Of a stretch of DNA of 64,000 nucleotides, positions 47,510 to 55,661 are shown in pieces. The DNA lies in assembly GCF_003967015.1 (NCBI RefSeq), contig NZ_AP017560.1, positions 2,604,001 through 2,668,000 on the forward strand. The letters run 5' to 3'. Position 1 is the first letter of the stretch; each line of letters starts with the position of its first letter. The notes under the pieces were generated by a model. That model worked only from the letters and a program-made list of their open reading frames with translations. It made no database searches and was not told the origin of the DNA. Source of the stretch: Pseudanabaena sp. ABRG5-3. Lineage in GTDB: Bacteria; Cyanobacteriota; Cyanobacteriia; Pseudanabaenales; Pseudanabaenaceae. A program made the position numbers and the translations under genes.

Positions 47510-49594
47510 ATGAGTGAAGTTAACAACCCTCTTTTAATTGGCAAAGGGCTACCACCATTTCCAGATATTAAGCCTGAACATGTCATTCCTGCGATTACCC
47601 AATTGCTTGAAGAAACTAGCGCAGGACTAACCCATCTCGAAGCCAATGTTGAGCCTACATGGTCAGGACTAGTCGAGCCGCTAGAACGTCTTACGGAACG
47701 GATTGGTTGGGCATGGGGTGCTATCGAGCATCTACTTAGTGTCAAAAACAGTGCCGAATTGCGCGAAGCTCATAAAGTTGTGCAACCCAAGGTTATTGAA
47801 TTCTTTAACCGTTTTAGCCAAAGCCAACCAGTCTATAAGGCTTATAAAGCAATCTATGGCTCATCGGTATGGGATAGCCTTGAACCTGCCCAAAAACGCA
47901 TTGTCGAAGCTGCTATTCGTGATGCCGAACTTTCGGGCGTTGGTTTAGAAGGTGAAGACAAAGAGAAGTTCAATGCGATCCAAATGGAACTTGCCGAACT
48001 CTCCACCAACTTCTCAAATCATGTCCTAGATGCCACTAAAGCCTTTAGCATGACTCTAACCTTGCCCGAAGAGATTGACGGGTTGCCTCCTAGTCTATTG
48101 GCTCAAGCTGCTCAAGCAGCCCGTCTTGACGGTGACAACAAAGCCACCCCTGAAAATGGATCTTGGTGCATTACCCTCGACTATCCTAGCTATGTTCCCT
48201 TTATGCAGCATAGTCGTCGTCGTGATTTACGTGAGAAACTCTATCGCGCCTTTGTCAGCCGTGCCGCCAGTGGTGAGTTTGATAATTCGCCATTGATCGA
48301 TCGCATTCTGGAATTGCGTCAGCAAAAGGCAAACTTGCTCGGCTATCCCACCTATGCGGAATTGAGTCTCGCTCGAAAGATGGCTCCCAATGTCGATGCT
48401 GTTGAGAAATTGCTGGAAGAATTGCGCCAGTCAAGCTACACTGCCGCCGTTGCAGAATTTGCCGAATTAAAGGAATTTGCAAAGTCTCAAGGTGAAACGG
48501 AAGAACTGAAGCATTGGGATACTGCTTACTGGGCAGAACGTCAACGCGAAACCAAGTTCAACTTTACCGTTGAAGAATTGCGTCCCTATTTCCCCTTGCC
48601 CAAGGTTCTTGAAGGTCTCTTTGCCCTTGTAAAGCGCTTGTTTGGAGTGACCGTCGTTCCTGCGGATGGCAAAGCTCCAATTTGGCATGAGAGTGTCTGC
48701 TTCTTTGAAATTCAAGATGAGCAAAATCAAGCGATCGCCTATTTCTACCTTGACCCCTACAGTCGTCCTGCCGAAAAGCGTGGTGGTGCATGGATGAATG
48801 ACTGCATCGGACGCGCCAAGGTGATCGAAGATGGTAAACCAATCACCCGTTTACCCGTTGCCTATCTCATTTGTAATCAGTCTCCCCCCGTTGATGGCAA
48901 ACCTAGCCTGATGACCTTTGGTGAAGTGGAAACTCTCTTCCATGAGTTTGGACATGGCTTGCAGCATATGCTTACTAAGGTTGACTATTCGGGTGCTTCG
49001 GGAATCAACAATGTGGAATGGGATGCAGTAGAATTGCCCAGTCAATTCATGGAAAACTGGTGCTACGATCGCGCTACCTTGTTTGGCATGGCAAAGCATT
49101 ATGAAACAGGCGAAACTCTGCCTGAATCCTATTACCAAAAGCTCGTTGATTCCAAAAACTACATGAGTGGTTCAGGAATGTTGCGTCAGTTACATTTCAG
49201 TCTCGTGGATATAGAACTTCATCATCGCTATCAAGTCGGTGGTGGCGAAACTCCCCTTCAAGTGCGATCGCGCCTTGCGAAAACCACAATGATCATCCCA
49301 CCCTTGCCTGAAGATAACTTCCTCTGCTCCTTTGGTCATATTTTTGCAGGAGGCTATGCCGCAGGTTACTATAGCTACAAGTGGGCAGAAGTTCTTAGTG
49401 CTGATGCCTTTGCCGCCTTTGAGGAAGCTGGGCTAGAGGATGAAGATGCGATCGCTTCGACTGGTAGACTCTATCGCGATACAGTTTTGGCTCTCGGTGG
49501 TAGTAAACATCCGATGGAAGTCTTTAAAACCTTCCGAGGACGCGAACCCAGCACAGCTCCTTTGCTGCGTCATAGTGGTTTAGCAAAAGTCTAA
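47510..49594 (+). CDS. prlC: M3 family oligopeptidase A-like metallopeptidase
   Basis: A 694-residue cytoplasmic zinc peptidase that degrades short peptides. The zinc site is ETLFHEFGHGLQHMLT (HExxH near residue 478) with the third ligand Glu further on (EWDAVELPSQFMENWCYD). Other family blocks are YFYLDPYSRPAEKRGGAWM and HIFAGGYAAGYYSYKWAEVL. Length matches oligopeptidase A. Confidence 0.95.
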   Translation: MSEVNNPLLIGKGLPPFPDIKPEHVIPAITQLLEETSAGLTHLEANVEPTWSGLVEPLERLTERIGWAWGAIEHLLSVKNSAELREAHKVVQPKVIEFFNRFSQSQPVYKAYKAIYGSSVWDSLEPAQKRIVEAAIRDAELSGVGLEGEDKEKFNAIQMELAELSTNFSNHVLDATKAFSMTLTLPEEIDGLPPSLLAQAAQAARLDGDNKATPENGSWCITLDYPSYVPFMQHSRRRDLREKLYRAFVSRAASGEFDNSPLIDRILELRQQKANLLGYPTYAELSLARKMAPNVDAVEKLLEELRQSSYTAAVAEFAELKEFAKSQGETEELKHWDTAYWAERQRETKFNFTVEELRPYFPLPKVLEGLFALVKRLFGVTVVPADGKAPIWHESVCFFEIQDEQNQAIAYFYLDPYSRPAEKRGGAWMNDCIGRAKVIEDGKPITRLPVAYLICNQSPPVDGKPSLMTFGEVETLFHEFGHGLQHMLTKVDYSGASGINNVEWDAVELPSQFMENWCYDRATLFGMAKHYETGETLPESYYQKLVDSKNYMSGSGMLRQLHFSLVDIELHHRYQVGGGETPLQVRSRLAKTTMIIPPLPEDNFLCSFGHIFAGGYAAGYYSYKWAEVLSADAFAAFEEAGLEDEDAIASTGRLYRDTVLALGGSKHPMEVFKTFRGREPSTAPLLRHSGLAKV

Positions 49595-49636
49595 TTTACA
49601 ATAAAGGCGTTGCAATGCAACGCCTTTATTGTAAAT
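49594..49636 (+). terminator. Palindromic terminator after prlC
   Basis: A perfect 20-base stem (ATTTACAATAAAGGCGTTGC, loop AAT) begins at the prlC stop codon. No T run follows, so termination strength is uncertain. Confidence 0.55.
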
Positions 49637-49976: not shown

Positions 49977-50058
49977 ATAGTGGTTGATAGAAATAATTAA
50001 ATAACGCCTTAAAATACGATAAAATTTCATTTGAACAATGATTTTCTGAAAAACTGCT

Positions 50059-53000
50059 GTGCAGATTACTGATATTCCTACAGGTTGGCTACTTTTAGAT
50101 ATAGAGAGAAAGAAAAAGGCTAATGGTAAATGGAAAATATCAGAGATTGCTTTGGTAGATTGTACTGAGAAGTATCACAATAAAGCATTAGAAAGATCGA
50201 CAGCAGATTTAACGCTAGAGAAAATCAAAAAATCAACAGTTGTTTTAGGACATAATATCCGTCGGCATGACTTAGCGACACTCTTTACAAATATTCCCTC
50301 ATGGCTCAACTTGAGAATTTGCGATACTCTCGAATTATCAGCATTTTTTTTAGTTGGACAGCAAACGTATAAACTTAGCAAACTATATCGTCAAGAGCTT
50401 GGATTTTCAGATCCCTTAGAAGATGCTTGGGAGAGTTTTGAGCTTTACGAAAAGGTTAAAGAAGTAGGCAAAAATTTACCGCCTTTAGTTTGCTATTGGG
50501 CTTGGCAACTTTTACCAGATAGATATCCTTTACGTCTAATCCCTGAAGGGGAATGGCTAAACGATTGGAAAAATCTTGAAGAAAAATTTCCTGATGCTGA
50601 GATAAAGGCACTGCAAAAATATGTGGAAACTATTCCTAAAAAGCCAAATATCAATAATTTAGGAATAATTATATTTTTAAATTGGCTATACCATCTTGAT
50701 AAGCCTCTAGCCCATCGCCCTAAATGGGTTGAAGAAACTTTTCCTCAATTTCGAGAAGCTGAAGCTATCACTTTCCCTTTTCTATCACAAGACTACTTCT
50801 CAGATGTCAAGTTGGATAAAGAACTAAAATTCTTTTTTGGTGATAGTTATTCTTTTCGAGATAATCAGTTAGAACTTGTCAAAGCATTTTTGAGTAAAGA
50901 AGTAACTCCATTGGGAATTTTACCAACTGGTGGGGGTAAGAGTTTGACATTCCAGTTTCCTGCGTTGCTTTTTTCAAAATATCAAAGAGGACTATCCGTC
51001 ATCATTTCGCCTTTACAAGCTTTGATGATGGATCAAGTTCAAAATTTGCAGGAACAATTAAAGGAAAGGCATCCTAACTATGTTGACAGAGTTGCTTTGC
51101 TATCAGGTACACAAAGTCTCAGTGAGCAGAAAGAGATTATTGATAACTTATGGCAAGGGAAAGTAGATATTCTTTATTTATCTCCTGAAAGATTGCGTCA
51201 GCCAACTATTCAAAGGCTTTTAAAGCATCGTTTACCAGTTTTATGGGTGCTAGATGAGGCGCATACTCTTTCGCAATGGGGACATGATTTTCGTCCTGAT
51301 TTTATGCGGATTGCGGGAATTATCAAGAAAATTTATCAAGATAAAATGCATGATTGTCGTTGGGGATTTGTGACAGCGACTGCAACAGATAAGGTAGTCG
51401 AAGATTTACAAGAAAAAGTAGAAACAATTAATTCAGATCAGCAAAGTGGAAAGCTTTTTACTGGGAAATTGGAGATTCTTCCTAGAGACAAAGAATATTT
51501 TCAATGGCGCAAAGAAATTACGACTTATGTTGAGAGCATTCCTGAAGATGACAGACAGGATAAGATGCTATCGATTTTAGAGACTGAACATAATCAACAT
51601 CCTCATGGAGTTGCAATTGTTTATGTACGTTTTAGGAAAGAAACTGAAAGATATGCAAAGATTATTTGCGATCGCACAAATTTGAGAGCTGAAGCTTTTC
51701 ACGGTCGGGTTACCGCACAGAAAAAGCAAGAGATACTGCAAAAGTTTAAGGATAAACAATTAGATGTTGTAGTTGCGACAAATGCTTTTGGTATGGGTAT
51801 AGATCGTGAAGGCATTCATACTGTGATCCACATTGCACCGCCAGCGACTCCTGAAGCATATCAGCAAGAGATTGGGAGATTGGCTCGTAAGCAAGGAGAA
51901 CAAGGCAAAGCATATCTATTTCAAGATAATGAAGACTTTGAGCGTACATTTAATCAAGAAAATAAATCCCAAATTAGTTCTCAGGCAATGCAAGGTTGTT
52001 GGGGTGTAATTAAAGAAAAATTAAAGAAAGGAAATGGAGATGCTTGGGTAAGTACCTTAGATCTGGAAAAGCATCTTGAGTCTGATGATCCAGAGATTCT
52101 TGCGACTCAGACAAGAACCGTACTTTATCAATTGGAAGAGGGGAATCTGCTCAGGGAAGAAGAATCATGTCCTTGCATTTTGTATATCCAGTTAAATAAC
52201 CATATGGCATTAGCCAGCCATATTCCATCATCATCAAAAAATCTAGTTCAGTATCTTAAAGAAATTGGGATTAAGCAAAAAGATAACGCTATCAACTTGG
52301 ATGTTCAAGAAGCCGCTTTGTCTATACCAATGTACCCTACTAAAATAATTAATAGTGTACGTCAGTTAGCAAAATCTGGAATAATTTCTTGGCATTACGA
52401 GATTACTTTTAAGTATTCCGAAAAGAAAGTCAAAAAAAGAATTGATGAGATTTTCACCAGAACACAAGCTTTTTTACAAGACTTGCAGGAAAAGGAAATC
52501 TTTGTTGAAGAGGAAAATCTGATCCGTCTTAACAATATTGAATCTCTGGAAAAAGAAATTTCATCTAAAAACAAAAACCTTAATTTCAAACTAAATGATG
52601 CTTTAAAACTGCTGACAAAATTAAAGCTTGCTAAGTACGAAAAAAAGAGTCGCAGCACTATTAATTTTTATTTTAATGATAATCAATCCTTTAGTCATTG
52701 GATAAAAATAAGTTTAGAAGCTTGTAAGATTCATATCAAGAATATTCAGACAGTAGAAACTGCACTAAGTCAAGTTTTTGAACTAAGAAACTGGAATAGG
52801 ACAGATAGTCAACTTGTAGACATAGCAGAAATTGAGTTGCAATTAGAAAATACTTATCTTGTAGGTACAAATCCTCTTTCTATTCTGAACCTGATGCAAG
52901 GTTTATGTCTAATTATGTTGGGTAGGGGTGATTCTAATTACGATAGGCTTTATCATGTTGTTAAAGGTAGTAAAACAAACTTTATCAAATCTATATATGA

Positions 53001-55023
53001 ACCTCTTCGCAAACATTATGAACAAAGATTTCAGCGTATCCATGCAATCAAAGAAGTTTTAAAATATGAAGATGAGCAAAAGAGAATAGCAGTTCTAAGA
53101 GATTATTTCTTAATGAATTTAGATGGTTTTAATGAGAAATATTTTCCTAATATAGATATTAATAGCCCGCCGATAATTAGTGACATACTTAACAATCTTA
53201 GTGATGCTCAAAAGGAAATTGTCAAAGACGATACCAGTAGAGCTTTGCTAGTTTTGGCAGGGCCGGGTTCTGGGAAAACGAGAACTATTGTTTATCGAGT
53301 TGCTCATTTAATAGCAGTCAGTGGTGTATCACCATCAAGGATTTTAGTCTTGTCACATACACGCACTGCGGCAGCAGAAGTACGAAAACGGCTATACCAA
53401 CTTTTAGGAGCGAGGGGGGCGCAAGTTGATGCACTTACTTTTCATGCTTTAGCTTCTAAGCTAACAGGATTGAGACATAATGATGCTCCAGATAACATTG
53501 GTAGAAATGCAAGTACAGATATAAAGTTTGATTGGTTACTAACAGAACTATTTACCTACCTTCAGGAAAATAGTTCTGATTATCAATACATACTGATCGA
53601 TGAATATCAGGATATTAATGAACTGCAATATCAGATCGTGAAGCTATTAGGCAATTTCCGAAGAGATGAAGACCAAGATGAACAACAGGATAGCTTTTTA
53701 GTTGCTGTGGGTGATCCCAATCAAAATCTATTTGAGTTTTCTGGAAGTAGTAATAAATTTATTAACGAATTTCGTAGAGATTGGTCTATAGAGGATCAAC
53801 CAGAAAGATGTCTCTTGGCGAATTATCGATCTCTTCCTGCCATAGTTGATTTTACAAATGTGTTCATCAGCCAAGCAATTCCTAATAATCAAATTAATCA
53901 AACAGGTGGAAAAATTTATGCTCACCGTGCTGATGGTATTGGCGAAATATTATGGGGAGAATATTCTCATCTATACCATGCTGCGAAATGGATAGCAGAT
54001 AGGATTAAAGAATTAATTTTTGACAGACAAATTAGGCCCAATGAGATCACAATATTAGCTCATAGATGGAAAGATCTCCGTTTTCTTCAGCATTTCTTGC
54101 AAGAGATTGGTGTTCCTTATCAGTTCTATGATAACTCTGAGAAACTACGTCCTTCTAATAGTCTGATTGGTCAAAAAATCTTAGAATATCTTAGAAAAGA
54201 TCCAGATCTAAAAGTTGATAATCCAACAGACTACTTGGAGAAAGTTCGCCTAATGCTTGGCTATAGCGATCAAGATGTTGCATGGCAATCTCTGTTAGCA
54301 ACCTTGGATAACTGTAAGAGTATTACTCAAGAAGAAATTTGTTATCTCTTAGAAGAAGCAAAAACTATTAGACCAGAAGAAGTTGTACTCTCTACATTCC
54401 ACAGTGCAAAGGGTTCAGAATTTGCTCATGTATTTGTACTTGAAGATGGCGATAGATTTGATCTGAGTAACAATTATGAGAGTTGTACTCGAAAACTTTA
54501 TGTGGGATTTACAAGAGCAAAAGATTCTCTATCTATTCTTTTTAAGCAAGGTACAAGGCAAAATGATCCTGCTTTAGTTGCGATGTCTATTTTAAAAAAT
54601 AGCGAATTAAATTCAGGTGTATCTAAAATCGAAATACCAACGATTTCTTTGAATCATCAATCTATTCGTTACCAACTTATATTAGAGCCTAAGGATTTAT
54701 TTTTGAGTCATCAATCTGTTCTTATAGCATCTGGTCGTAATAGGATAGACTACTATGGACGTAATTGGGGAAGTATAAGCATTGAAGGTAGATCTTTTTA
54801 CTATGAATATGGTTCCTCAGATAAATCAGGTAATGTGGCTTTTCTATCTACAGTAGGGAACACAATATTGCAAAATCACCCAAATCATAGAGTTACAGCA
54901 AAAGGATATACAATATTTCGTGTCGAACGTGATGATGAATGGTATGAGAGGGTAAGGTATTCAGGCACTGAAGATCATCATTATGTGGTTTTGCCTTGCT
55001 TAGAAATAGAAGAAAGACTGTAA
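50059..55023 (+). CDS. Exonuclease-like/RecQ-type/UvrD-type helicase fusion
   Basis: A 1654-residue protein. Residues 1-150 look like a DEDD 3'-5' exonuclease (LLLDIER with D14/E16, LGHNIRRHD, DPLEDAWESFELY). About 265-640 is a RecQ-type helicase: LPTGGGKSLTFQFP, LDEAHTLSQWGHDFRPDF, ATNAFGMGIDREGI, QEIGRLARKQG. The cysteine zinc-binding set of classic RecQ is not evident. About 1050-1560 is a UvrD/Rep helicase: VLAGPGSGKTRTIVYR, ILIDEYQDINELQYQI, LSTFHSAKGSEFAHV, LYVGFTRAKDSL. The gene is AT-rich with a single HIP1 site (51669), unlike its neighbours. Start is GTG with no clear ribosome site. It likely acts in DNA repair or anti-phage defence. Confidence 0.92.
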   Translation: MQITDIPTGWLLLDIERKKKANGKWKISEIALVDCTEKYHNKALERSTADLTLEKIKKSTVVLGHNIRRHDLATLFTNIPSWLNLRICDTLELSAFFLVGQQTYKLSKLYRQELGFSDPLEDAWESFELYEKVKEVGKNLPPLVCYWAWQLLPDRYPLRLIPEGEWLNDWKNLEEKFPDAEIKALQKYVETIPKKPNINNLGIIIFLNWLYHLDKPLAHRPKWVEETFPQFREAEAITFPFLSQDYFSDVKLDKELKFFFGDSYSFRDNQLELVKAFLSKEVTPLGILPTGGGKSLTFQFPALLFSKYQRGLSVIISPLQALMMDQVQNLQEQLKERHPNYVDRVALLSGTQSLSEQKEIIDNLWQGKVDILYLSPERLRQPTIQRLLKHRLPVLWVLDEAHTLSQWGHDFRPDFMRIAGIIKKIYQDKMHDCRWGFVTATATDKVVEDLQEKVETINSDQQSGKLFTGKLEILPRDKEYFQWRKEITTYVESIPEDDRQDKMLSILETEHNQHPHGVAIVYVRFRKETERYAKIICDRTNLRAEAFHGRVTAQKKQEILQKFKDKQLDVVVATNAFGMGIDREGIHTVIHIAPPATPEAYQQEIGRLARKQGEQGKAYLFQDNEDFERTFNQENKSQISSQAMQGCWGVIKEKLKKGNGDAWVSTLDLEKHLESDDPEILATQTRTVLYQLEEGNLLREEESCPCILYIQLNNHMALASHIPSSSKNLVQYLKEIGIKQKDNAINLDVQEAALSIPMYPTKIINSVRQLAKSGIISWHYEITFKYSEKKVKKRIDEIFTRTQAFLQDLQEKEIFVEEENLIRLNNIESLEKEISSKNKNLNFKLNDALKLLTKLKLAKYEKKSRSTINFYFNDNQSFSHWIKISLEACKIHIKNIQTVETALSQVFELRNWNRTDSQLVDIAEIELQLENTYLVGTNPLSILNLMQGLCLIMLGRGDSNYDRLYHVVKGSKTNFIKSIYEPLRKHYEQRFQRIHAIKEVLKYEDEQKRIAVLRDYFLMNLDGFNEKYFPNIDINSPPIISDILNNLSDAQKEIVKDDTSRALLVLAGPGSGKTRTIVYRVAHLIAVSGVSPSRILVLSHTRTAAAEVRKRLYQLLGARGAQVDALTFHALASKLTGLRHNDAPDNIGRNASTDIKFDWLLTELFTYLQENSSDYQYILIDEYQDINELQYQIVKLLGNFRRDEDQDEQQDSFLVAVGDPNQNLFEFSGSSNKFINEFRRDWSIEDQPERCLLANYRSLPAIVDFTNVFISQAIPNNQINQTGGKIYAHRADGIGEILWGEYSHLYHAAKWIADRIKELIFDRQIRPNEITILAHRWKDLRFLQHFLQEIGVPYQFYDNSEKLRPSNSLIGQKILEYLRKDPDLKVDNPTDYLEKVRLMLGYSDQDVAWQSLLATLDNCKSITQEEICYLLEEAKTIRPEEVVLSTFHSAKGSEFAHVFVLEDGDRFDLSNNYESCTRKLYVGFTRAKDSLSILFKQGTRQNDPALVAMSILKNSELNSGVSKIEIPTISLNHQSIRYQLILEPKDLFLSHQSVLIASGRNRIDYYGRNWGSISIEGRSFYYEYGSSDKSGNVAFLSTVGNTILQNHPNHRVTAKGYTIFRVERDDEWYERVRYSGTEDHHYVVLPCLEIEERL

Positions 55024-55088
55024 ATCGAACCTATAAATATTGTGTAAAGGCTGTTTATAAATTCCTTCCTCGAAATATTTCAAAGTAA

Positions 55089-55307: not shown

Positions 55308-55661
55308 AGGTTTATCCCTCCCTTAAACCGACTCCTATATTGTGCATCTAGTTCCCAATTTCTCCTGTGATATGAAAAGCCCTAAGTTCGCGATCCTTAT
55401 CGCAGTAAATAGGCGATCTCCATCACTAATATGTACTACCGAAATCACAAAAAAAGAGCGCAAGACGCTCTTTTTTTGATTTTTGTTGAAAGGCTTAGAG
55501 CCTGTTTGAGAAGTCTCATGTCTAGCATAAATTTCTGCTTTTACCCCCCTTAATCCCCCCTTTCAAGAGGGGAACCTGAATTCTCCCCCTTTCAAGGGGG
55601 AGTTAGAGGGGGTAAAAAACTTCTCAAATACGCTCTTAACCTTCGATAAAAATGTAGGAAG
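55308..55661. repeat. Non-coding gap with hairpin and MITE-like element
   Basis: A hairpin with AAAAAAAGAGCG arms lies at 55449-55477 and could terminate in either direction. A 138-base element at 55498-55635 has inverted ends (GAGCCTGTTTGAGAAGT / ACTTCTCAAATACGCTC) around TTTTACCCCCCT...AGAGGGGGTAAAA and CCCCCCTTTCAAGAGGGG-type arms. No gene is seen. Confidence 0.75.

Follow-up and report, generated by a model that had tools for sequence, protein, structure and literature searches.

The window analysed in this work is a stretch of 64,000 nucleotides from Pseudanabaena sp. ABRG5-3. It carries an uninterrupted open reading frame of 1654 amino acids on the forward strand (50059-55023, +) that starts with GTG. 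The start position is common to the window protein and its two orthologues in the alignment, and the P. galeata copy starts with ATG. The ORF, the Pfam matches and the alignment describe a complete gene with the order DEDD exonuclease, RecQ-like motor, linker, UvrD-like motor and C-terminal tail. An earlier note on this DNA had read the gene as a fusion of exonuclease-like, RecQ-type and UvrD-type parts, and all three parts are present in the one chain. Two inverted repeats lie near the gene. A perfect 21-bp inverted repeat, likely a terminator, directly follows the oligopeptidase gene (49594-49636) and has partial matches elsewhere in the genus genomes. The other (55539-55617), 33 bp long and imperfect, lies in the interval from the gene to sppA and contains two copies of CCCCCTTTCAAGxGGG.

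The DEDD exonuclease-fold domain was assigned to residues 7-150 (50077-50508, +) from the alignment, the profile and the model. No Pfam model matches residues 1-255 of the window protein. The 25-row profile of the N-terminal region exhibits DinG as its best match in PDB (E 2.3e-6), followed by a TREX1-like exodeoxyribonuclease (2.6e-4) and then by T7-type and PolC polymerases. Of its 14 matches with E no higher than 1, two are Ceg4 (0.11), which is not known to be related. A smaller 13-row profile returned six PDB matches that are named DEDDh, exodeoxyribonuclease or polymerase gamma chains, with E of only 0.16-0.39. The AF2 model of residues 6-255 has a mean pLDDT of only 53.9, with core blocks at 63-84 in model residues 1-90, and its order of strands and helices appears to be that of a DEDD fold. 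The best Foldseek match of this model is a TREX1 homologue (9mrc, 4.6e-5; also 1.6e-4), and Cap18 and TREX2 are among the best matches. The VIA matches include ISG20 (1wlj; Z 12.1, rmsd 3.3, 132 residues), E. coli ExoI (Z 11.8, rmsd 3.3, 136 residues) and DinG (Z 11.6). The earlier note had called the N-terminus exonuclease-like and had named the absence of a DEDD fold as what would weaken that idea. The profile match to DinG and the matches of the AF2 model bear the call out, and structure prediction gave a DEDD fold.

The family alignment consists of 35 members from Cyanobacteria, Deinococcus, Proteobacteria, Campylobacterota, Bacteroidota and IMG/VR contigs. The gene of L007 lies in two frames and was excluded, and L060, which has no DEDD match, is also absent from the alignment. 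The profile match of L083 starts at position 134, so this member is without the DEDD core and was counted as a gap, hence 34 members with the domain. All 34 members have the metal-ligand acids D14, E16 and D71, and D122 is found in 33 of them; the last Asp of the set is lost in L092. H65 and N66 are also kept in 34/34. Five residues ahead of the last Asp, where DEDDh enzymes have their His, 30 members have Asn, three have Ser (the Pseudanabaena orthologues, S117 in the window protein) and one has Lys, and none of the 34 has His. The His of DinG aligns with this Asn column in the profile alignment. The position of the DEDDy Tyr, four residues before the last Asp, is occupied by Asp in 17 members, Asn in 16 and Cys in one, and again Tyr is found in none of the 34. 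The nuclease may therefore be weak or dead. The Asn or Ser in place of the catalytic His suggests that the nuclease is slow or acts only under certain conditions, a property that would help to spare the cell's own DNA. One member of genome G085 (L060) has the two motors and no exonuclease profile match within its 8.9-kb contig. This member and L092 indicate that the DEDD domain is not indispensable to the family.

Both motor sets are complete. The RecQ-like SF2 core was delimited by profiles and motifs at residues 256-640 (50824-51978, +) and has TGGGKS (290-295), DEAH (399-402) and QxxGRxxR (603-610). The UvrD-like SF1A core, delimited in the same way at residues 1045-1500 (53191-54558, +), has AGPGSGKT (1067-1074), DEYQD (1181-1185) and TRAK (1485-1488). 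The two Walker A motifs thus agree with the positions of about 290 and 1068 that had been noted before. Pfam places DEAD/Helicase_C at residues 268-611 and UvrD-helicase/UvrD_C at residues 1048-1495, each with a score above cut-off. The window protein matches RecQ-type SF2 models (TIGR01389 2.5e-70, TIGR00614 2e-63) and misses the curated cut-off of TIGR00614 (214.8 bits vs 219.8). The UvrD-like motor exhibits the SF1A motifs and scores above cut-off for PF00580 (114.1 bits) and PF13361 (60.7 bits), and it misses the UvrD/PcrA/Rep equivalog cut-offs of TIGR01075 (130.7 vs 1144.45), TIGR01073 (133.3 vs 911.2) and TIGR01074 (101.4 vs 951.45). The RecQ residues K294, D399, E400, H402, T439, Q603, R607 and R610 are found in 35/35 aligned members, as are the UvrD residues K1073, D1181, E1182, Q1222, R1257 and G1452; R1486 is found in 34, with one gap. 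The same genome also encodes RecQ-like proteins (741- and 482-aa frames) and a UvrD-like protein (801 aa), so the fusion protein is not the sole copy of either motor.

The linker between the motors, residues 641-1044 (51979-53190, +), may hold winged-helix elements, with a best VIA Z of 6.5 and winged-helix proteins among the top rows for a model whose pLDDT is only 55. The Pfam search of the window protein gave no match for the RecQ zinc-binding/RQC and HRDC regions. The cysteine set of the RecQ zinc module is absent from all members, with at most three Cys at positions 620-800 in 35/35. The C-terminal tail, residues 1501-1654 (54559-55020, +), is the least constrained part of the protein. 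The dN/dS of the window gene against L005 (84% protein identity) is 0.19 for the whole gene, 0.115 for the exonuclease, 0.123 for the RecQ part, 0.139 for the UvrD part and 0.42 for the tail. The low value in each of the three modules indicates that all of them have been kept under purifying selection.

The gene lies within an exchanged segment of the chromosome (49979-55087, no strand) that was identified by flank comparison and scan. The genome with the most similar flanks (G029) exhibits 95.3-97.5% identity over five flank stretches, and its flanks are continuous up to both points. Between them lies a different insert, about 2.35 kb long, whose genes for PtuA (1.8e-157) and PtuB (2.8e-92) identify it as Septu. 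The slot is empty in G021, another species, with about 51 bp between the flanking genes. The slot of G011 holds a photolyase-related gene (DPRP 6.2e-53), and its right flank differs beyond a small 72-aa ORF. The slot of G020 holds a gene that by appearance resembles the photolyase-related gene of G011. Both flanking genes occur together in 4 of 22 genus stretches besides the window, some of the stretches being cut by contig ends. These contents show that the gene sits in an exchange site that can hold a known defence system in its stead. In G018 the same slot also holds a gene for a DUF4253 protein (1.3e-17; L053:14687-15619), and a look-alike of it is found in G020 (L077:12536-13465).

An orthologue was found in only 3 of the 26 genus genomes (G000, G018 and G012), some of the other 23 being incomplete. 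The gene has a GC content of 35.3%, the remainder of the window one of 43.1%, and the single HIP1 site of the gene compares with an expectation of 9.1 derived from that remainder (Poisson P 0.001). The gene had been noted as AT-rich with a single HIP1 site, and both counts agree. The orthologue of G012 is located on a contig of 225,631 bases that agrees with the P. galeata plasmid pPg_01 in its length and in where the match lies, and it is interrupted near the C-terminus. In a quick tree that carries a long-branch warning, a Deinococcus plasmid protein groups with the three Pseudanabaena orthologues, and the second copy in the own genome (contig C2) falls into another clade, with other cyanobacteria. 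On this sequence evidence the gene is accessory: it is patchy in the genus, low in GC and poor in HIP1, and its nearest outside kin is on a Deinococcus plasmid. The horizontal acquisition or mobility that the earlier note proposed is supported by the patchiness, the slot exchange, the tree and the composition, and the universal vertical inheritance across the genus that it had set against this idea does not agree with orthologues in 3/26 genomes. The orthologue in G018 is at the same place, and the gene (86.7%) is as diverged as the near flanks (86.0% and 88.6%), with the next two right-hand genes at 79.6 and 77.2%. In this lineage the gene therefore did not reach the site recently.

Relatives were found on plasmids, on IMG/VR contigs and in cyanobacterial genomes, where the phyla outside Cyanobacteria were sampled through plasmids and IMG/VR only. 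IMG/VR contributed 12 frames of 1467-1782 aa, and one scan of genome_contigs gave a single relative. Searching the phylum with the full protein matched at least 3 of 386 genomes, a count that may be too low as the best two candidates per genome were scored. The N-terminal profile matched at least 5 of the 386, with at most six candidates per genome and the same possible undercount; two of these five (G311 and G342, of one genus) look like T7-type polymerases, judged on G311. The same profile was found in 7 of the 26 genus genomes, two of them as short remnants. Phage records gave 24 matches, none of which covers 80% of the query, and the best 20 of the 24 match only about residues 250-641. Public annotations label the members as 'RecQ family ATP-dependent DNA helicase' or 'UvrD-helicase domain-containing protein'.

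Several variants of the gene were also observed. A four-part variant in G013 (L057:5664-11390, -) encodes 1909 aa with a NERD nuclease domain (1.5e-11) before the DEDD-RecQ-UvrD order. Its NERD-bearing stretch recurs at the start of the gene region in G027 and in a G009 remnant, and NERD is also found in a G008 remnant (2.6e-12). The decayed N-terminal remnants (L197 and L198) belong to two other genus genomes. A 2490-aa frame in G051 (L196:2883-10355, +) exhibits a DEDD match, both helicase sets (DEAD-type and UvrD-type) and a long extra N-terminal region, and a transposase-like frame is nearby. The own genome has a second, divergent family member on contig C2 (215 kb, perhaps a plasmid; L055:8487-16267), which is cut by a transposase-like ORF and adjoins a WYL-type regulator (PADLOC WYL/Csx1 9.1e-52; Pfam WYL below cut-off). 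Contig C6 of the same genome holds a 76-aa 5' remnant close to the window gene (L056:6062-6292, -), beside a transposase-like frame.

The protein can be compared with several known systems. RecBCD and AddAB are large helicase-nucleases with two motor modules, and the window protein is similar in this respect. However, it is a single polypeptide of accessory distribution in which both motors belong to 3'-5' families, as RecQ and UvrD/Rep/PcrA both do. The earlier note had expected opposite polarity of the two motors, which is wrong on general knowledge, and a RecBCD-like motor working on two strands with opposite polarity was rejected for the same reason. The test for a full-length AddA/RecB match with a C-terminal nuclease domain failed (addA_alphas 61.7 bits vs 860.75; RecB-like helicase 74 vs 650), and no nuclease Pfam match was found in the window protein. 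The proposed likeness to RecBCD/AddAB processors is thus unsupported, since the motors share one direction and Pfam matched no RecB-type nuclease domain.

In WRN a single chain carries a DEDD-type exonuclease and, after it, a RecQ motor. The window protein has the same order, and its RecQ half matches WRN chains in PDB. It differs from WRN in that it is without an RQC zinc or HRDC match and without the DEDDy Tyr, has a second motor of UvrD type, and is bacterial and mobile. Septu, Gabija, DISARM and Dpd are multi-gene systems. Profiles of Gabija (GajB, UvrD-like) and Dpd (DpdF, RecQ-like) match the two motor halves. Among the best 25 of 70 matching families in PADLOC-DB 2.0.0, DpdF is the best (5.9e-75), over residues 254-636 only, and PsyrT and GajB likewise match one motor; unlike the window protein, the best stretches among these listed matches cover one helicase each. 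The likeness to Septu is that of a shared slot position, in G029. The domains of Hna and Nhi differ from DEDD-RecQ-UvrD, and the likeness to them, drawn from their descriptions, is that of a nuclease and an ATPase/helicase in one defence protein. Hna is reported to be one polypeptide with 3'-5' ssDNA exonuclease, ATP-controlled activity and an abortive anti-phage role (PMC13381803), and Nhi is described as a single-gene nuclease-helicase (PMC12904381). DinG of Staphylococcus/Bacillus also fuses an N-terminal DEDD exonuclease to a helicase, and it is the best N-terminal profile match; it is described as a DEDD-helicase fusion that degrades ssDNA 3'-5' (PMC12525004). However, DinG has one XPD-like motor (same paper) and His in the column where the window family has Asn, and the window family has RecQ and UvrD motors. 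No exonuclease-RecQ-UvrD fusion is described in the titles and abstract openings of the literature among the matches listed. The parts are known. The family stands out by the way in which they are combined, by a DEDD site that has no His and by its spread on mobile DNA, and its proteins already exist as annotated records.

The gene neighbourhoods of the relatives were surveyed on 18 plasmid relatives, 16 of them with gene annotation, over flanks of 8-12 kb a side. The controls were 16 kb stretches on nine of these plasmids, positioned by hand in advance of any look at the genes in them. Over 35 loci, no other gene family is shared by more than three (ORFs of at least 110 aa, BLAST E 1e-8, with contig ends truncating some of the flanks), which agrees with the self-containment that had been proposed. 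Upstream of the Scytonema relative, on its strand and separated from it by two genes, are DISARM DrmA, DrmB and DrmC; the Allochromatium relative has a type I R-M one gene away, and the Thiothrix relative has a type I-D CRISPR about 4 kb away. DNA methylases are near the IMG/VR relatives L083 and L088, and L089 and L092 adjoin large serine recombinases. The strict count of defence systems, named from annotation except for DISARM and R-M, which were scanned, is 3/16 annotated plasmid relatives (type I-D CRISPR, type I R-M and DISARM) vs 1/9 controls (type I-D CRISPR). All three positives are among the nine plasmids from which a control was taken, and a paired 3/9 is therefore biased upward. Toxin-antitoxin genes are found on both sides of the comparison. 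The strict count left out a helicase with partial BrxHI/DruE likeness beside the Nostoc relative, an AAA protein with NsnB/AriA likeness near the Deinococcus relative L008, and a DUF262-UvrD pair in one control. The survey for defence islands thus gave some defence neighbours and no excess of them over the controls. The anti-phage role that the earlier note proposed has circumstantial support from Septu in the G029 slot and from DISARM two genes upstream of one relative, and this lack of an excess speaks against it.

We consider that the gene probably encodes a movable DNA-attack or DNA-processing enzyme. The reading ranked first, to which we give a probability of about 0.47, is a stand-alone, mobile enzyme in which a single protein acts as a 3'-5' helicase-exonuclease on DNA ends, likely in defence against phages. 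The enzyme part of this reading is fairly safe, and the defence role is no more than suggested. The protein would bind a 3' end or a ss/ds junction, one or both motors would translocate on and unwind the DNA, and the exonuclease domain may trim the 3'-ended strand by analogy with WRN, DinG or Hna within one polypeptide. DEDD exonucleases degrade 3'-5', as the two motor families move. A shared direction on one strand with 3'-end trimming is the simplest model, and not a RecBCD-like division of strands. The target might be ends or forks in the DNA of phages that invade the cell, or in other mobile DNA, and the gene could be carried as a single-gene cassette on plasmids, other mobile DNA and swap-prone chromosomal slots; these two steps are less sure. 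A bolder form of this reading, which we offer tentatively as about a one-in-three conjecture, is an undescribed and widespread anti-phage machine, a dual-motor 3'-end helicase-exonuclease with a His-less 'DEDD-N' site that would be restrained until it is licensed, either by the ends of phage DNA or by the inhibition of a host enzyme that processes ends. It would be a one-gene cassette that crosses phyla and swaps with Septu-like systems, to which some Pseudanabaena add NERD.

The main rival is replicon repair or maintenance. The gene would encode an accessory DNA-repair or replication-restart enzyme on mobile DNA, a WRN-like exonuclease-RecQ with an extra motor that resolves forks or ends for its replicon and has no defence role. 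Relatives are located beside plasmid partition genes (ParAB; Aliarcobacter L164) and a replication initiator (Deinococcus L008), which fits a maintenance role too; SSB and ParA genes lie within 10 kb of L011, and a topoisomerase adjoins L163. The WRN order of domains and the defence neighbours that do not exceed the controls also favour this explanation. We nevertheless regard it as somewhat unlikely, since the chromosomal copy occupies an exchange slot whose content in G029 is Septu, the distribution in the genus is very patchy, no partner gene recurs, and the genome has separate RecQ-like and UvrD-like proteins. A clearly less probable alternative is that the N-terminal domain is a catalytically dead module for binding DNA ends and that a dual-motor translocase remodels DNA or strips proteins from it without degradation. 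The replacement of the DEDDh His by Asn, Ser or Lys and the existence of a member without the domain agree with this alternative, but a mere binding module would not need the four metal-binding acids that 33/34 members keep, and the exonuclease part has the lowest dN/dS. An ordinary, vertically inherited housekeeping gene of the genus is very improbable. The equal divergence of gene and near flanks between G000 and G018 at the same site favours it, and the plasmid copy in P. galeata and the 23/26 genomes (some incomplete) where no orthologue was found speak against it; for the genus as a whole it is refuted by the 3/26 distribution and the Septu content of the G029 slot.

If the preferred reading of a helicase-exonuclease that processes DNA ends is right, the family would add a two-motor, one-gene design to the bacterial helicase-nuclease enzymes that act at DNA ends. 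That the DEDD domain is conserved and yet has no catalytic His raises a direct question of enzymology, namely whether the site is active and what replaces the general base. Since the members are labelled as plain helicases, a family that is defined by its motifs becomes searchable and testable.
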